In this document: in pieces, positions 48,544-55,713 of the stretch | Position numbering within the stretch: the stretch's first letter is position 1 | Layout: each line of letters begins with the position of its first letter | Origin: Bradyrhizobium sp. CIAT3101 | GTDB taxonomy: Bacteria > Pseudomonadota > Alphaproteobacteria > Rhizobiales > Xanthobacteraceae | NCBI RefSeq assembly: GCF_029714945.1 | Contig: NZ_CP121634.1 | Location: 3,121,001 to 3,185,000, forward strand | Length of the DNA: 64,000 nucleotides | Reading direction: 5' to 3' | Position numbers and translations under genes: made by a program | The notes under the pieces: generated by a model | The model's database searches: none | Told to the model about the DNA's origin: nothing | What the model saw: only the letters and a program-made list of their open reading frames with translations

Positions 48544-50133
48544 GTGCCAAAACTTCCGGCCGCGCTGGGCCCGCGTCATCTCACGCTGTTTCGCGCCGCG
48601 CTCGGACAGGGCCGGACCGCAATCGACGCCTATCAGGCCTGGCGCGCCGCGGAGCCGCTCGATGCGGCCGACGAGGTCGTCTACCGCACCATGCCGCTGC
48701 TTGTGGCAACCGCCGACATGGCCGGGATCGTCGATGCCGACACCAGGAAAATGCGCGGCGTCGTCAAGCATGTCTGGCTGTCGAATGCGACGCGGGTGCG
48801 CGATGTGGTCGCGGCGTCCGCAGCGCTCAAGGCCGCCGGCATCGCCGCGCTGCTGATCAAGGGCGGCGCGCTGTTCGCGCGCGACGAGAGCTACATGGCG
48901 AAGCGCATGACGGGGGATTACGATCTCCTGGTCCGCCGTGCGGATGCGTCGCGCGCGATCAAGGTGCTGCGGCAGGCCGATTTCCGCAGCCACGGCATGC
49001 GGGTCGAGCTGTTCCAGGAATCCGATTTCGATCGCGACATCCATGCGGTGGCGATGTCGCGGGCCGGCTTTGCCCGCGCCATCGATCTGCACTGGCGCGC
49101 ACTGTTCTGGCTCGACGACGAAGGCTTTACCGAGGCGCTGTTCGCGACCGCCGAGACCGGGACGCTGCTGACCCATGAGGTGCTGATCCCCGGTGTTGCC
49201 GAGCATCTGGCGATCGCGGCGATGCGGCCGGAGCCAGCCGATCAGAACGAGATGGTGTCCCGCGCGCTCGAGATCGTCCATGTGCTCGAGAGCAAGGCCG
49301 GCGCCAGGGTCGATTGGGACCGCTTCCGCGCGATCGTGACGCGCTACAATGGCAGCCTGTTTGCCGCGCAATTGCTCGACGTCGTCGCGCGCGAGATGCC
49401 GGCCCTCGTGCCGCACGGACTCATCTGGCAGTTATGGGACTACGGACCGCCGGGAAAGTCGATCGAGATGTCGATCCGCGCCGTGCCGCGCGCGCGGCGC
49501 ACGCAGTGGCAGCACTTTGGCGCTGCCTTCTTCTCGGCGCTTCGCGCGCGTTTCAAGGCGCCGTTCCGGGGCTGGGACTGGCTGCGGCTACCCGGCGCGG
49601 CGATCGCGGCATTCGATGCGGGCATCGTGCAGTTTCCCTTGTTTCGGGATGCGATCCTGAAGCGGATCTGGCAGCAGATCGCGCGCGCGGCGTATCCGTC
49701 GCGCGGGAGCGGCATCTGGTTCGGGCAGGGCTTTTCCATTCCGGAGGATGAGGGGCGGTGGACCGACCGTCCATTCGCCGTCCTCGAAATGCCCGTCGAC
49801 GACAGGACCCGCGATCCCGTCGCCGTGGAGCTCGTGGTCGTGCCGTTCCTGCCGCCGGGCACGGACAATTTCCGCTTCGTCGCTTACGCCGGCATTGGAT
49901 CGGTGCAGCAGATGGCGGCAGGGCGCACCGATCCGATGCCGTTCAGAATCGCGCTGCAGGCGAGAGTCATTGGTGCACGCCAACGCAAGATCGTCGTCGC
50001 GCTGCGGATGCTCGATTGCCAGCGCCCGACCGACATCGGCCATTCGATCGATCCGCGTCTGCTCGGGCTGTTCGTGAAATCCGTGTCGGTGAACGGCGCG
50101 ACGGTGTTCACTCCGGCGGGCGCCGGGCCTTGA
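48544..50133 (+). CDS. NTP_transf_5-type nucleotidyltransferase with C-terminal beta-rich domain
   Basis: 529 residues from a GTG at 48544. Residues about 80-270 match the uncharacterised nucleotidyltransferase family PF14907: LLIKGGALFARD (Lys106-Gly-Gly) and MTGDYDLLVRR with Asp125 and Asp127. The final 130 residues (GFSIPEDEGRWTDRPFAVLEM..., then TDIGHSIDPRLLGLFVKSVSVNG) look like a beta-sandwich often fused to glycan enzymes. In pseudomycoidin-type lasso-peptide clusters a protein of this family adds sugar to a phosphate placed by an HprK-like kinase; such a kinase lies at 50801. The 3' end overlaps the convergent GT2 gene by 26 bases. Confidence 0.8.
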   Translation: MPKLPAALGPRHLTLFRAALGQGRTAIDAYQAWRAAEPLDAADEVVYRTMPLLVATADMAGIVDADTRKMRGVVKHVWLSNATRVRDVVAASAALKAAGIAALLIKGGALFARDESYMAKRMTGDYDLLVRRADASRAIKVLRQADFRSHGMRVELFQESDFDRDIHAVAMSRAGFARAIDLHWRALFWLDDEGFTEALFATAETGTLLTHEVLIPGVAEHLAIAAMRPEPADQNEMVSRALEIVHVLESKAGARVDWDRFRAIVTRYNGSLFAAQLLDVVAREMPALVPHGLIWQLWDYGPPGKSIEMSIRAVPRARRTQWQHFGAAFFSALRARFKAPFRGWDWLRLPGAAIAAFDAGIVQFPLFRDAILKRIWQQIARAAYPSRGSGIWFGQGFSIPEDEGRWTDRPFAVLEMPVDDRTRDPVAVELVVVPFLPPGTDNFRFVAYAGIGSVQQMAAGRTDPMPFRIALQARVIGARQRKIVVALRMLDCQRPTDIGHSIDPRLLGLFVKSVSVNGATVFTPAGAGP

Positions 50134-50788
50134 TGGCCTGGCGCAGCGCCAGGAGCGTCTCGCGGTTCTGGGCGTCCGTGTTGATGCGTCCGCCATTGCC
50201 GAGATGCAGCCGGCGGCGCACCACGATGTCGTCGACGTGCGCGCTCCTCAACCCGTTCTGCTTGGCGCGGCCGAGCCAGGCGATGAAGAAGGTCGCGGGC
50301 AGGCTCTCGTCGAACGGCCCGGCCCGGTCGAGCGCGGCGCGCCGGATCAGCATGCACTGCTTCAATTCGCCCGGCATGATCGCGACCGCGGGCTTGAGGC
50401 GCTCGCGTTGCGCGTCCGGCACGTCGGGACTGACGAATTGCTCGACCTTGCCGAACACGGCGTCGACGCGGCCCTGATGCTCCAGCAGTGCCAGCTGCAA
50501 TTCGAGCTTGCGCGGCGTCCAGAGGTCGTCGGCGTCGCAGAAGCCGATCAGCTCGCCCTGCGCGGTCGCGAGCGCCTTGTTGACGGCGACGGCCTGGCCG
50601 TTGTTGCTCTGGGCAAGCACGGTGATGCGGTCGTCGAATTCGCCGAGCACATTGCGCGTGTCGTCGGTCGAGCCGTCGTCGATGACGATCACCTCATCGG
50701 GCGGCACGGTCTGGCCGAGCACGCTCTCGACCGCCTCGGCGATGTAGGTCTCGGCATTGTAGGCGGCGATGATGACGGAGACACGCAT
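50108..50788 (-). CDS. Glycosyltransferase family 2
   Basis: 226 residues, short for a GT2. The start MRVSVIIAAYNAETYIAEAVESVLGQ, VIDDGSTDDTRNVL, and the metal site GFCDADDLWTPRKLE are clear; the C-terminal part has FFIAWLGRAKQNGLRSAHVDDIVVRRRLHLGN. It is the last of three minus-strand genes (PqqD-like, HprK-like kinase, GT2), 12 bases after the kinase. The acceptor may be the product of the same module, but this is inference. Confidence 0.88.
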   Translation of the reverse strand: MRVSVIIAAYNAETYIAEAVESVLGQTVPPDEVIVIDDGSTDDTRNVLGEFDDRITVLAQSNNGQAVAVNKALATAQGELIGFCDADDLWTPRKLELQLALLEHQGRVDAVFGKVEQFVSPDVPDAQRERLKPAVAIMPGELKQCMLIRRAALDRAGPFDESLPATFFIAWLGRAKQNGLRSAHVDDIVVRRRLHLGNGGRINTDAQNRETLLALRQAIKARRPPE

Positions 50789-50800
50789 GTCGGTGCGGCC

Positions 50801-51793
50801 TCAAAGTCTTTGCAATTGATCGGCGAACGCGGCGGGAATCTCGGCAGGCCTGGTGCCGGTATCGGCAAAGAACACCGGCGCGAGACCTGCGATCCGCGCC
50901 ACCTTCTCCGCGATCTGGTTCGGCCAGCCCGGCAGCTCGTAGGCCGTGGTCGGCAGCAGCGCGCGAAACGCATCCGATGGCTTCGCAGGCGTGAATTCGG
51001 GTGAGGCCGCGCCGCGCCGGCGCGGAATGAAAAGCGCACGCAGCTTGCCGCCACCGAGGCGCTCGCCGAGACCGGCCAGGCTGAGCTCGTGGCGCAGCTC
51101 GCCGTTGAAATCCGACACCGGCGTGGTGCCGCCGATCAGGTCGCCAAACGCGTCGACAAGGGCAGGGCGCAGCCGCGCGGAGCAGAACAGCGGCTCGATC
51201 GCGCCGGTGACGCTGTTGACCGCGACAAAGTCGTCGCCCGCGTAGCGCCAGCCGGCCTTGACGCAGGCGAGCGCCGCGGTGGTCTTGCCGCTGTGACCCT
51301 CGCCCGCGAGCAGCGTGAAGCCGGTCGTGCTCCCCACAGCCGCCGCATGGACGGCGCACCAGGGCGTCTCCTGCATCAGGGCGTGGATGAGGGAGATCGC
51401 GGGCCGGCTGCGGATCCAGGGCGGTGCCTCGCCCTTAGGCAACCACGCGATGCCGCGCCGCGCCACCAGGTCGATCGCGTACAGCACGGGAATGACGGCC
51501 GGCTGCCAGACCGAATAGATGCCGTCCTCGATCAGCAGCCGCGGTTTTTCGGAAGCTTCCGGCACCAGCGCCGAGAGATCATGGTCGGTTGCTGTGACGA
51601 AGCGAAGCTCGAGATCGACGCCATCGGCCGCGCGCTGGACATAGGCCGGCAGGAACATGCGGGCCAAATCCTGCGAGGCAAAGCCGAGATGCAAGCCGAA
51701 CGGTCCGCAGCGCGCATGCGCCTCGATCGGCTCCGACGTTGTCCTGGCGAAGACCCCCGCGATCTCCCGCCGGATGAGGTCGCTCGCTTTCAT
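50801..51793 (-). CDS. HprK-like P-loop kinase
   Basis: 330 residues. The P-loop GEGHSGKTT (164-172), AGDDFVAVN (185-193, with the two acidic residues of HPr kinase), and the PHARTPR-like later basic stretch resemble the C-terminal half of HPr kinase/phosphorylase, but the overall protein is the divergent HprK-related type found in peptide-modification clusters. PTS components are not near. It starts at the base next to the stop of the PqqD-like gene (TAG then ATG), so the two are translated together. A role in phosphorylating a peptide or small molecule is inferred. Confidence 0.82.
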   Translation of the reverse strand: MKASDLIRREIAGVFARTTSEPIEAHARCGPFGLHLGFASQDLARMFLPAYVQRAADGVDLELRFVTATDHDLSALVPEASEKPRLLIEDGIYSVWQPAVIPVLYAIDLVARRGIAWLPKGEAPPWIRSRPAISLIHALMQETPWCAVHAAAVGSTTGFTLLAGEGHSGKTTAALACVKAGWRYAGDDFVAVNSVTGAIEPLFCSARLRPALVDAFGDLIGGTTPVSDFNGELRHELSLAGLGERLGGGKLRALFIPRRRGAASPEFTPAKPSDAFRALLPTTAYELPGWPNQIAEKVARIAGLAPVFFADTGTRPAEIPAAFADQLQRL

Positions 51794-52240
51794 CTAGTTC
51801 TCTTGGTTCTCGCGCAGCGGCCAGCCTTCCTCGCCGGCATCGTGCACGGGATCCATCAGCAGCAGCTCCCGCAGATTGTCGAAGCGCTGGAATTCCGGGG
51901 CGACGAATGCGCCCGACAGCATCGGTGTCCAAGGGCTGATGGACGTCTCAACGGAGGTCTCACTGCGCGCATCGGCGGCACCGTTCGCGATGAGGCCTTC
52001 CGCCAGCATGCTGTCGACGAAGGCTTGCACCTGTTGCGTGATTGACGTCACATCTCCATCAGTCGCAGCAGCCAGCGCGCGTCCGATCTCCTCAACCGTT
52101 CGGTTGACCTTGAGGCCGAGCCAGATCTGCGCAGCGCTGCCGTCGAGGTTGTAGTAGACGCCATTCTGATAGTTGGCCAACACGACTTCACTATCGAATT
52201 GCTGGCTGATCAGCAGCGGCACCGTCGTGGTGAGGGCCAT
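51794..52240 (-). CDS. PqqD-like (RiPP recognition element) protein with C-terminal tail
   Basis: 148 residues. The first 88 follow the PqqD/RRE pattern: VVLANYQNGVYYNLDGSAAQIWLGLKVNRTVEEIGRAL, then a helix ending DSMLAEGLIA. RRE domains bind the leader of ribosomally made peptides and pass it to modifying enzymes. The rest (about 89-148) is an acidic tail containing APEFQRFDNLRELLLMDP and EEGWP, a motif that recurs, to my memory, in proteins of this type. Lasso cyclase and B2 peptidase are absent. The gene heads the PqqD-kinase-GT2 unit. Confidence 0.78.
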   Translation of the reverse strand: MALTTTVPLLISQQFDSEVVLANYQNGVYYNLDGSAAQIWLGLKVNRTVEEIGRALAAATDGDVTSITQQVQAFVDSMLAEGLIANGAADARSETSVETSISPWTPMLSGAFVAPEFQRFDNLRELLLMDPVHDAGEEGWPLRENQEN

Positions 52241-52671: not shown

Positions 52672-54651
52672 CTACGAAGCCGCCGTCGCTGCGGCGAAGG
52701 CGTCCCTGAGCCGCTGGGCGAGCTCGGTCTTGCGATAGGGTTTGGTCAGGACCACGGCCTCCGCCTGCGCGCGGCCCTGCTCGACCAGGGTCTCCAGCGC
52801 ATAGCCGGAAGTGAACAGCACCGGCAGGCCCGGCCGAATCCGGCGGGCCTGATCGGCGAGCTCCCAGCCGCTCATCCCGCCGGGCATGACGATATCGGTG
52901 AACAGCATGTCGATGCCGGGATCGGCGCGCAGCCGCTGCAGGGCCTCCTGGCCATTGACGGCGGCGACGACGCGATAGCCGAGCGCCTCCACCCGGAGGA
53001 TCACCGAGGAGCGCACAAACGGATCGTCCTCGGCAATCAGGATGGTCTCGTGCCCGCGCGGCGCGGCGTCCTCGCCGTCCAGCACGTCGGTCGGCGATTG
53101 TCCGCCGCCGGTGCGCGGCAGGTAGATCCGGACCGTCGTCCCCAGGCCCTGTTCGCTATAGATCGAGACATGGCCGTCGGATTGCTTTGCGAAGCCGTAG
53201 ACCATGCTCAGTCCAAGCCCTGAACCCTTGCCGACCTCCTTGGTGGTGAAGAAAGGCTCGAAGGCGTGCTCGATCACTTCGGGCGTCATGCCTTCGCCGT
53301 CGTCGGTGACGGAAATCAGCGCGTAGGCGCCGGATGTCACTTCTGGGTGCAGGGCGCGGTAGTCCTCGTCGATTGCGGCGAGCTCGGTGCTCAGCGTCAG
53401 GTGTCCGCCGGAGGGCATCGCGTCCTGTGCGTTGAGCGCAAGGTTCAACACGGCGGATTCGAGCTGGGCACGGTCCGCAAAGGCCTGGATGGTGCCAGGG
53501 CCGAACGCCGTCTTGATCTCGATGTTTTCGCGCAAGGTGCGCTTGAGCAGCTTGAGCATGGATTGCAGCAGTTCGCGGCAATCGATCGTCTTTGGCTGCA
53601 GCAATTGGCGGCGGCTGAATGCCAGCAGTCGCTGCGTCAGCTCCGCGCCGCGTTCGCCGGACTCGCAGATATCGTCGGCAAATTGCCGCAGATCGGGCCG
53701 CGCCTTCAGCTGCTCGCTGAGATGCTCGGCGTTGCCGATGATCACGGTCAGGAGATTGTTGAAGTCATGCGCGATGCCGCCGGAGAGCTGGCCGACCGTC
53801 TCCATCTTTTGCGCCTGCTGGAGCTGCTGCTCGGTCAGCTTACGCGCGGTCAGATCGTGGATGATGCCAACATAGATCAGCTCGCCGTCCTGCCACGCCT
53901 GGCCAACCGACAGATTCATCGGAAAGCTCGATCCGTCCTTGCACAGGCCGATGGCTTCTCCGGTTGCGAAACGCCGCGCATGACCGGTGGTTGGGCGCCT
54001 CTCGTCGTTCGACATCAGCATGCCGATGTCGAGATTCATCACTTCCTGGGCGCGATAGCCGAACAGCCGTTCGCACGCGGGATTGAAAAGGAGAATGCGG
54101 GCCTGCGCGTCGAACAGGATGACGCCGTCGACCGCGGTCTCGACGATGGCGGTGAGACGCGTCACGCTTTCGCGCATCGCGCGCTGGGCGTCTCCGACCT
54201 GTCTGAGCAACAATGTCGCGTCCCGGCTCTTGATCTCCTCCTCCTGGAGCGCGGCCTGGACCTTCTGCAGCTCGAACGGGGAGGGGATTGCCAGGATCTT
54301 TGGCAGGAGCGGCCAGAGCGCGGCCGCGGTGAAGATCGATGCGATGGCGGTCATCGCCTTGACCAGGCCCTCGATACCATAGATCGGCACCCACAGCGTG
54401 TAGATCGACAGCACATGGGTCAGGCCGCAGGCCATGATGAAGGCTGCGAACGCCCAAAAGACCCAGCCGAATTGGAGGTCACGCCGTTTGGTGACGAGGA
54501 TCGCGAGCGCGAACGGGATCGAGAAATAGGCCGCCGCGATGCAGGCGTCAGAGACGACATGGAGCCAGATCAGCTCGGGCTCCCACAGCAGGCAGATGCC
54601 GTGCGGTGAAAACATCGAGGAGTCGAGGATACGTTCGAAATAGGCCCACAT
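52672..54651 (-). CDS. Hybrid histidine kinase with ETR1-like ethylene/copper-binding membrane domain
   Basis: 659 residues from the ATG at 54651 (GGGAAG five bases upstream); a GTG at 54717 is possible. Three membrane helices in the first 120 residues carry VVSDACIAAAYFSIP and FIMACGLTHVLSIYT. Asp35, Tyr42, Pro46, Cys75 and His79 correspond, with the same spacing, to Asp25, Tyr32, Pro36, Cys65 and His69 of plant ETR1, where Cys65 and His69 hold the copper that binds ethylene. Next are a PAS domain (about 170-270), a histidine kinase (His295 in GIAHDFNN, later TDDGEGM and KGSGLGLSMVYG) and a receiver (Asp586 in FTDIVMPGG). The output partner is unknown. Confidence 0.9.
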   Translation of the reverse strand: MWAYFERILDSSMFSPHGICLLWEPELIWLHVVSDACIAAAYFSIPFALAILVTKRRDLQFGWVFWAFAAFIMACGLTHVLSIYTLWVPIYGIEGLVKAMTAIASIFTAAALWPLLPKILAIPSPFELQKVQAALQEEEIKSRDATLLLRQVGDAQRAMRESVTRLTAIVETAVDGVILFDAQARILLFNPACERLFGYRAQEVMNLDIGMLMSNDERRPTTGHARRFATGEAIGLCKDGSSFPMNLSVGQAWQDGELIYVGIIHDLTARKLTEQQLQQAQKMETVGQLSGGIAHDFNNLLTVIIGNAEHLSEQLKARPDLRQFADDICESGERGAELTQRLLAFSRRQLLQPKTIDCRELLQSMLKLLKRTLRENIEIKTAFGPGTIQAFADRAQLESAVLNLALNAQDAMPSGGHLTLSTELAAIDEDYRALHPEVTSGAYALISVTDDGEGMTPEVIEHAFEPFFTTKEVGKGSGLGLSMVYGFAKQSDGHVSIYSEQGLGTTVRIYLPRTGGGQSPTDVLDGEDAAPRGHETILIAEDDPFVRSSVILRVEALGYRVVAAVNGQEALQRLRADPGIDMLFTDIVMPGGMSGWELADQARRIRPGLPVLFTSGYALETLVEQGRAQAEAVVLTKPYRKTELAQRLRDAFAAATAAS

Positions 54652-54912
54652 GATTTCTTCCCGAAAGGATTGCGGGCCGAGGCCGGCCCGCAACAAGGCG
54701 TCGCTGGACGAATCCACCTGCTAACGTGTCATTCGCGGGGATGGGCGCCAAGGCCGGACGATGCCCTGGTCTTATTTTCTCAGGTTATGCCCGCTTCCGG
54801 GGCGACAATGCCGCGCAGCACCGGCTGTGCCTGATTCGCCGGCTTGCTGGGGCTGCAGGGGCGCGCTAGGACTGGCTATGGCCGAGTTTTCCTCAAGCAA
54901 GCGTATCCTGCG

Positions 54913-55713
54913 ATGACCACGCCCGTGGCGCTCACCATCGCCGGTTCGGATTCGAGCGGCGGCGCCGGCATTCAGGCCGACCTGAAGACCTTTGCCGCGC
55001 TCGGCGTCTATGGCGCGTCCGCGATCACGGCGCTGACCGCGCAGAACACCAAAGGCGTCACCGGCATTCATGCGGTGCCCGCCGCGTTCGTCACGGCGCA
55101 GATCGATGCGGTGTTCTCCGATCTCGATGTCGGCGCGGTGAAGATCGGCATGGTGGCGCAGGCCGAGAGCATCGACGCGATCGCCTCTGCGCTGGTGCAC
55201 TGGAAGCCTCGCCATATCGTGCTCGATCCCGTGATGGTCGCGACCTCCGGCGATCGCCTGCTGGCGGCGGAGGCCGTCGAGGCGTTGCGCACGAAGCTGA
55301 TGCGGCTGGCATCGGTGATCACACCCAATCTGCCGGAGGCGGCCGCGCTGCTGGACGAGCCGATCGCACGAAGCGAGATCGAGATCGAAAGCCAGGGGCG
55401 CCGCCTTCTCGAACTCGGCTGCCGCGCGGTCCTGATCAAGGGCGGACACGGTGAGGGCCGCGAGAGCATCGACTATCTCGTCGGCGCCGACAAGACGATC
55501 GCGCTTGCCGCGTCGCGCGTCGCCACGCGCAACACCCATGGCACAGGCTGCTCGCTGTCCTCGGCGGTTGCAGCAGGCCTCGCCAGGGGCGAGGATCTCG
55601 AGATGGCCGTGCGCAACGCCAAGGCCTGGATCAGCGCGGCGATCGAAGCTGCCGACCGCTTCAGCGTCGGTCACGGCCACGGGCCGGTCCATCATTTCCA
55701 CAAATTCTACTGA
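54913..55713 (+). CDS. thiD: Hydroxymethylpyrimidine / phosphomethylpyrimidine kinase
   Basis: 266 residues from the ATG at 54913; the longer frame upstream lacks family sequence. ALTIAGSDSSGGAGIQADLKTF, ITALTAQNTKGV, DPVMVATSGDRLL and NTHGTGCSLSSAVAAGLA are the ribokinase-type ThiD motifs. The enzyme phosphorylates HMP to HMP-PP for thiamine synthesis. I see no TPP riboswitch in the preceding 190 bases, so regulation may be constitutive or by another means. Confidence 0.95.
   Translation: MTTPVALTIAGSDSSGGAGIQADLKTFAALGVYGASAITALTAQNTKGVTGIHAVPAAFVTAQIDAVFSDLDVGAVKIGMVAQAESIDAIASALVHWKPRHIVLDPVMVATSGDRLLAAEAVEALRTKLMRLASVITPNLPEAAALLDEPIARSEIEIESQGRRLLELGCRAVLIKGGHGEGRESIDYLVGADKTIALAASRVATRNTHGTGCSLSSAVAAGLARGEDLEMAVRNAKAWISAAIEAADRFSVGHGHGPVHHFHKFY

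Follow-up and report, generated by a model that had tools for sequence, protein, structure and literature searches.

Many proteobacteria are described as encoding predicted ethylene receptors (PMC11819568, PMC7700396), and plant-associated species are named among the carriers (PMC11819568). The first 130 aa of one such protein, AzoEtr1 of A. brasilense, give saturable 14C-ethylene binding (PLoS Genet 2025, PMC11819568), and in this bacterium ethylene, or disruption of the receptor, is reported to reduce biofilm formation and root colonisation (PMC11819568). SynEtr1 of Synechocystis, likened here by its description, is like the protein reported below a bacterial histidine kinase with an ethylene-binding domain. 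It signals by phosphotransfer to a regulator, as that protein probably does, and is in addition light-sensing (PMC11819568, PMC10452086). Inhibition of the kinase by ethylene is predicted for AzoEtr1 and has indirect evidence in the case of SynEtr1 (PMC11819568).

In plants, ethylene binding by ETR1 is reported to need seven residues (PMC11819568, PMC6586836), with I35, P36, I62, C65 and H69 named among them (PMC6586836), and an Asp-Lys salt bridge is described without residue numbers (PMC13012798). Further sources treat plant receptors (PMC7912845, PMC12586083) or fungal, plant, algal and cyanobacterial ones (PMC5285503). In the open-licence literature no paper on a Bradyrhizobium ethylene receptor was found, nor any result on ligand binding or phenotype for a protein of this genus. 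An earlier note on this DNA had said that the rhizobial receptor appears little studied, a description that agrees with the literature searched, but receptors of proteobacteria as such have already been described (PMC11819568, PMC7700396). The probable receptor reported here is thus a new but expected member of an already described bacterial family.

Gene and domain organization

The gene lies on the minus strand of the window (the whole stretch of 64,000 nucleotides analysed, from Bradyrhizobium sp. CIAT3101) exactly where the earlier note had placed its open reading frame, and the PAS, histidine kinase and receiver domains that it saw joined to the membrane domain were all recovered in the Pfam scan. 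The features of the locus are the following:

52672..54651, minus strand: hybrid histidine kinase with an ethylene-binding domain, 659 aa from an ATG start (open reading frame, Pfam domains, start kept in relatives)
54286..54576, minus strand: ethylene-binding domain ETR1_N, residues 26-122 (Pfam E=3.6e-38, profile positions 1-97 of 97; AlphaFold)
54514..54549, minus strand: pocket part of helix 1, Asp35 to Pro46, including Tyr42 and Ile45 (aligned to ETR1 D25, Y32, I35, P36)
54415..54429, minus strand: Cys75-Gly-Leu-Thr-His79 in helix 2, putative Cu(I) ligands (aligned to ETR1 C65 and H69)
53821..54174, minus strand: PAS domain, residues 160-277 (TIGR00229 sensory_box 160-277; Pfam PAS about 165-269)
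53605..53793, minus strand: HisKA, residues 287-349, phospho-acceptor His295 in GGIAHDFNN (Pfam; motif at residue 291)
53110..53475, minus strand: HATPase_c, residues 393-514 (Pfam; GKGSGLGLS at 474)
52708..53043, minus strand: C-terminal receiver (Response_reg), residues 537-648, Asp586 in LFTDIVMPG (Pfam; motif at 583)
54844..55713, plus strand: thiD, divergently transcribed neighbour, given for context only (Pfam and NCBIfam)

The frame stays open upstream to a GTG at 54717, which would yield 681 aa (22 aa extra). The ATG at 54651 (659 aa) appears the likelier start, because 45/48 relatives at the same chromosomal place begin from it with MWAYF or MWAFF, the length from the aligned ATG is 657-660 aa in all 48 of them, and the open frame of locus L055 starts just one codon before the aligned ATG.

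The ETR1_N match covers the full length of the profile with 130 bits, against a Pfam cut-off of 27, and is the sole one in the 9.37-Mb single-contig host genome at E up to 0.001. The phospho-acceptor His, the ATPase motifs and the receiver Asp were all found by the motif scan, as in a hybrid histidine kinase. In its kinase and receiver part the protein resembles the HDFNN hybrid kinases PRK13557 and CckA, its best NCBIfam matches for that part (413 and 333 bits, respectively). Membership of either family is ruled out, since both scores fall below the curated cut-offs of 631 and 1000.

Conservation of the ethylene-binding pocket

The window domain was aligned with residues 1-128 of Arabidopsis ETR1, the nine residues of interest standing at their published numbers. 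In this alignment D25, Y32, I35, P36, I62, C65, H69, K91 and S98 of ETR1 correspond to D35, Y42, I45, P46, I72, C75, H79, K98 and S105 of the window protein. All seven ethylene-binding residues of ETR1 are matched (D25 and Y32 presumably being the two that complete the set), as are K91 and S98; the Asp-Lys salt bridge we take to be D25-K91. The earlier note had reported Asp35-Tyr42-Pro46-Cys75-His79 as matching, and the alignment agrees and extends the match by four positions (I45, I72, K98, S105). Both proteins share the nine positions, a C-terminal receiver and, as far as can be predicted, a three-helix Cu/ethylene domain, although only 41/118 aligned positions (35%) are identical. ETR1 differs in carrying a GAF domain (PMC6586836), and plant receptors are described as signalling mainly without His phosphorylation (PMC11819568).

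The nine pocket positions are invariant in 80/80 related loci (L031-L110). The records of 75 of these are titled Bradyrhizobium, which bears out the genus guessed in the earlier note, and the other five Bradyrhizobiaceae, Tardiphaga, Hyphomicrobiales, 'bacterium' and Frankia; the nearest relative, Bradyrhizobium sp. CCGUVB4N, is 100% identical over 130 aa. The record titled Frankia sp. RB7 (L038) has a domain 95% identical to that of the window and the same gene order on the thiD side, and is probably mislabelled or contaminated. Among the 120 protein matches listed of 2049, Cys65 and His69 occur in all 120, and Asp25 and Pro36 in 119 each. More widely, an order-wide draw gave 22 loci that were read, and the full set of seven binding residues is present in 16 of them and not in the other 6. 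As judged from these comparisons, a chance origin of the likeness to ETR1 is excluded, because the full profile is matched with an E value of 3.6e-38, none of the 14 control genomes in each genome draw carries ETR1_N (0/14), and 9/9 positions are invariant throughout the 80 loci.

The domain of AzoEtr1 from A. brasilense Sp7 (L177) is 51% identical to that of the window over 132 positions and has the same nine residues. Its gene, located on plasmid ABSP7_p1, encodes 525 aa from an ATG, and the first residues agree with the cloning primer given in PMC11819568. The stop of this gene is overlapped by another that encodes a 135-aa receiver. Both proteins combine an alphaproteobacterial ethylene-binding domain with PAS and histidine kinase domains in a plant-associated host. 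Unlike the plasmid-borne AzoEtr1, with its receiver encoded as a separate overlapping gene, the window protein is encoded on the 9.37-Mb contig, has an HDFNN-type kinase and bears its receiver in cis. In a Rhizobium isolated from a Vicia nodule, a plasmid carries a further such gene, with a domain 39% identical and all nine residues in place.

Conservation of Cys75 and His79 (80/80), together with the binding of Cu(I) by the ETR1 domain (apparent Kd about 1e-15 M; PMC6586836), would also fit a Cu(I) sensor that reads copper through its Cys-His site, ethylene playing no part in this bacterium. However, Tyr42, Ile45, Pro46 and Ile72 are equally invariant (80/80), and their ETR1 counterparts matter for ethylene and are not proposed copper ligands. 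Nor does any copper-handling family occur among the nine window neighbours scanned. Copper sensing is hence regarded as quite improbable.

Predicted structure and selection

An AlphaFold model built with 41 sequences places helices at residues 25-55, 62-85 and 91-120 (mean pLDDT 83.7; pTM 0.67), with pLDDT values of 94 over residues 31-50 and 93 over 71-80. These predicted helices 1-3 hold the pocket residues. On an ideal helix wheel D35, Y42, I45 and P46 fall within 100 degrees, I72, C75 and H79 within 60, and K98 and S105 within 20. The earlier note would have given up its reading had Cys75 and His79 been found not to face each other in the membrane; as far as the sequence tells, the two are separated by roughly one turn of a single helix and point to the same side of it. 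Searches of the PDB by sequence gave no match, whether with a single query (E up to 1) or with a profile (E up to 10). Those by fold gave 127 matches at E up to 10, the best of them with an E value of 1.1 and thus none within 0.001. The copper site is therefore left without a template, as no related solved structure was found by either route.

Ratios of dN/dS were estimated from 150 pairs drawn at random from the 1128 formed by the 48 loci at the thiD place. Values were 0.098 for the ethylene-binding domain, 0.067 for HisKA, 0.108 for HATPase and 0.179 for the receiver; the segment preceding the receiver, for which 143 pairs were usable, stood at 0.357. The PAS domain, at 0.267, had the highest value among the folded domains compared, 2.7 times that of the ethylene-binding domain. 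According to these estimates, the ethylene-binding domain is under purifying selection.

Chromosomal place and kinase types

The receptor is divergent from thiD in 48/80 related loci, and a phosphoesterase gene is found on the thiD side in 48/48 of these, matching LpxH-type models below their cut-offs. Two loci (L077, L079) bear the long type of receptor elsewhere than at the thiD place. The other 30/80 loci encode short-type proteins of 525-555 aa, which keep all nine residues and have no evident PAS domain (Pfam run on one of them, L088). Their ethylene-binding domains are 74-84% identical to that of the window (best segment), whereas their kinases are about 44-53% identical (matched part), and long branches separate the long and short types in a kinase tree of 58 chosen rows. 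Given this mismatch between domain and kinase identities, the ethylene-binding domain has probably moved between kinases within the related group. Across the order the kinases are more diverse, with the AHDFNN box absent from 20/22 proteins.

Attachment of a similar membrane domain to other kinases in these 30 loci, and the PAS domain present in the window protein, are points in favour of a membrane domain that acts as a mere anchor or dimeriser, the PAS domain being the real input. The same 30 proteins nevertheless keep the nine pocket residues while looking PAS-less, and in the long type it is the PAS domain that has the higher dN/dS. We give such a role very little credence.

No response regulator, HPt or other two-component regulator occurs among the nine window neighbours scanned, and a scan of four neighbours at further loci of the PAS type (L056, L064, L077) showed no response regulator or HPt either. 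A further kind of receptor with ethylene-binding, PAS and kinase domains is encoded at 1954-4853 of L129, and L130 has it likewise, as judged by its ethylene-binding domain. In L129 a lone receiver gene overlaps the kinase gene and is followed by a LuxR-type regulator, a candidate output.

Genes with matches to PqqD, to HprK-related kinase A (a weak match), to glycosyltransferase 2 and to NTP_transf_5 lie beside the receptor at 48544-52240 of the window. This set was found in 11/48 thiD-type loci over the stretch examined, and looks like a variable cassette. Split or truncated receptor copies in two genomes (L125, L126) suggest strain-level loss or assembly error.

Occurrence in the genus and relation to nodulation

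ETR1_N occurs in 101/146 genomes of the genus, incomplete ones included, in 42/297 genomes of the order (37 over the cut-off) and in 29/398 of the phylum (28 over the cut-off), the order and phylum draws both including genomes of the genus. A canonical receptor, defined by a score above 100 bits and thus lumping several kinds, not all of them read, was assigned to 82/146. Full-length NodA scores were found in 85/146, after nine genomes with weak matches had been dropped from 94.

Carriage of the canonical receptor and of nodA are unassociated in the 146 genomes (47 with both, 35 with the receptor only, 38 with nodA only, 26 with neither; Fisher p=0.87, uncorrected for kinship). The same is true of the long type, taken as an open frame of 660 aa or more and present in 51 genomes (30 both, 21 long type only, 55 nodA only, 40 neither; p=1.0 in the 146 genomes, uncorrected for kinship). 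ACC deaminase is over its cut-off in 127/146, and receptor carriage is unassociated with it as well (p=0.81, 146 genomes, again uncorrected for kinship).

An ethylene-binding receptor might still have a job tied to nodulation, through which the symbiont reads the ethylene brake of its host. The host genome has nodA and a gene for ACC deaminase that scores above its curated cut-off, and the domain is more frequent in the genus than in the phylum draw, which includes some of that genus; both points would fit such a role. Against it stand the absence of any association with nodA and the conserved place of the gene beside thiD in 48/80 related loci. For these reasons a special link to nodulation, on which the earlier note had laid its emphasis, is not supported, and a job tied to nodulation is considered unlikely.

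A remodelled sister subfamily

In 26/146 genomes of the genus a copy of about 60-91 bits is found, and ten of the 26 also have a canonical copy (both assigned by score). Partial, broken or differently built copies in G131, G033, G094 and G070 were set aside, and 15 remodelled loci from 12 genomes were read (L111, L112, L114-L124, L127, L128). The position of His69 is occupied by Arg in 14/15 of these and by Cys in one (L123); L121, L122 and L123 are also without Asp25 and Cys65 (3/15). Of the 342 matches to a protein search with one of these copies, 120 were listed (P0121-P0240). Among them Arg occupies position 69 in 118 (the other two having Ser and His), Phe position 32 in 118, Thr position 35 in 119 and Ala position 36 in 117; Cys65 is kept in 109 and replaced by Ser in 11, whereas Asp25 is kept in 120 and Lys91 in 116. 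A 32-row alignment shows no variation in the Arg, the Asp or the kinase His. The subfamily keeps both kinase and receiver, and its kinases fall into a single clade (27 rows, support 98/98), the Ser and His exceptions included. No shared neighbour family was found in more than 2/15 of its loci.

In the remodelled subfamily (10/15 loci) dN/dS is 0.29 for the ethylene-binding domain and 0.144 for the kinase stretch, the corresponding values of the canonical long type being 0.098 and 0.067-0.108. From the former difference, the remodelled domain appears less constrained than the canonical one, which could also mean decay and not a new function. Copper or ethylene binding by this subfamily seems improbable from its residues. 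Two proteins from another family of the order (L154, L155) have Glu25, Cys32, Ala36, Cys65, Arg69 and Glu91, possibly an independent, convergent remodelling.

Bradyrhizobium may have two kinds of receptor-like kinase, namely a canonical Cu/ethylene receptor used outside nodulation and a conserved subfamily with a rebuilt pocket, probably turned from copper and ethylene to another signal or to a constitutive state. In the latter, the Arg would perhaps stand in for the charge of Cu(I) beside the Asp-Lys pair. This two-kinase arrangement is put forward tentatively, with slightly less than an even chance of being right.

Proposed signalling and significance

That the window protein is an ethylene receptor, as the earlier note had proposed, is well supported by sequence comparison because of the full ETR1_N domain, the nine pocket positions, the 51% identity to the proven binder AzoEtr1 and the purifying selection on the domain. 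We consider it quite probable that the gene encodes a membrane Cu(I)/ethylene receptor with output into a His-Asp phosphorelay, and that it serves root association or metabolism in general and not nodulation alone.

In such a receptor two protomers would dimerise, and each three-helix domain would hold Cu(I) via Cys75 and His79. Ethylene would bind to the copper, aided by Asp35, Tyr42, Ile45, Pro46 and Ile72, and a salt bridge between Asp35 and Lys98 probably links this binding to a shift of the helices. As long as no ethylene is bound, the kinase would autophosphorylate His295 and pass the phosphate to Asp586 of its own receiver and from there to an unlinked partner. Ethylene would lower the kinase output and so act as an inverse agonist, a mode that has been proposed for both AzoEtr1 and SynEtr1; this inhibitory polarity is inferred from other species with different kinase modules. 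The receptor would then report ethylene from roots, soil or microbes.

Progress on what the copper site does in signalling has been slowed because the domain has no solved structure, as far as searches by sequence and fold could tell. The His-to-Arg subfamily, as a set of natural pocket variants, could help to show this role. If ethylene is bound by the canonical receptor, this widespread genus, which comprises soil bacteria and symbionts of legumes, would be able to read a plant hormone by which nodulation is limited, in strains with nodulation genes and in strains without them.
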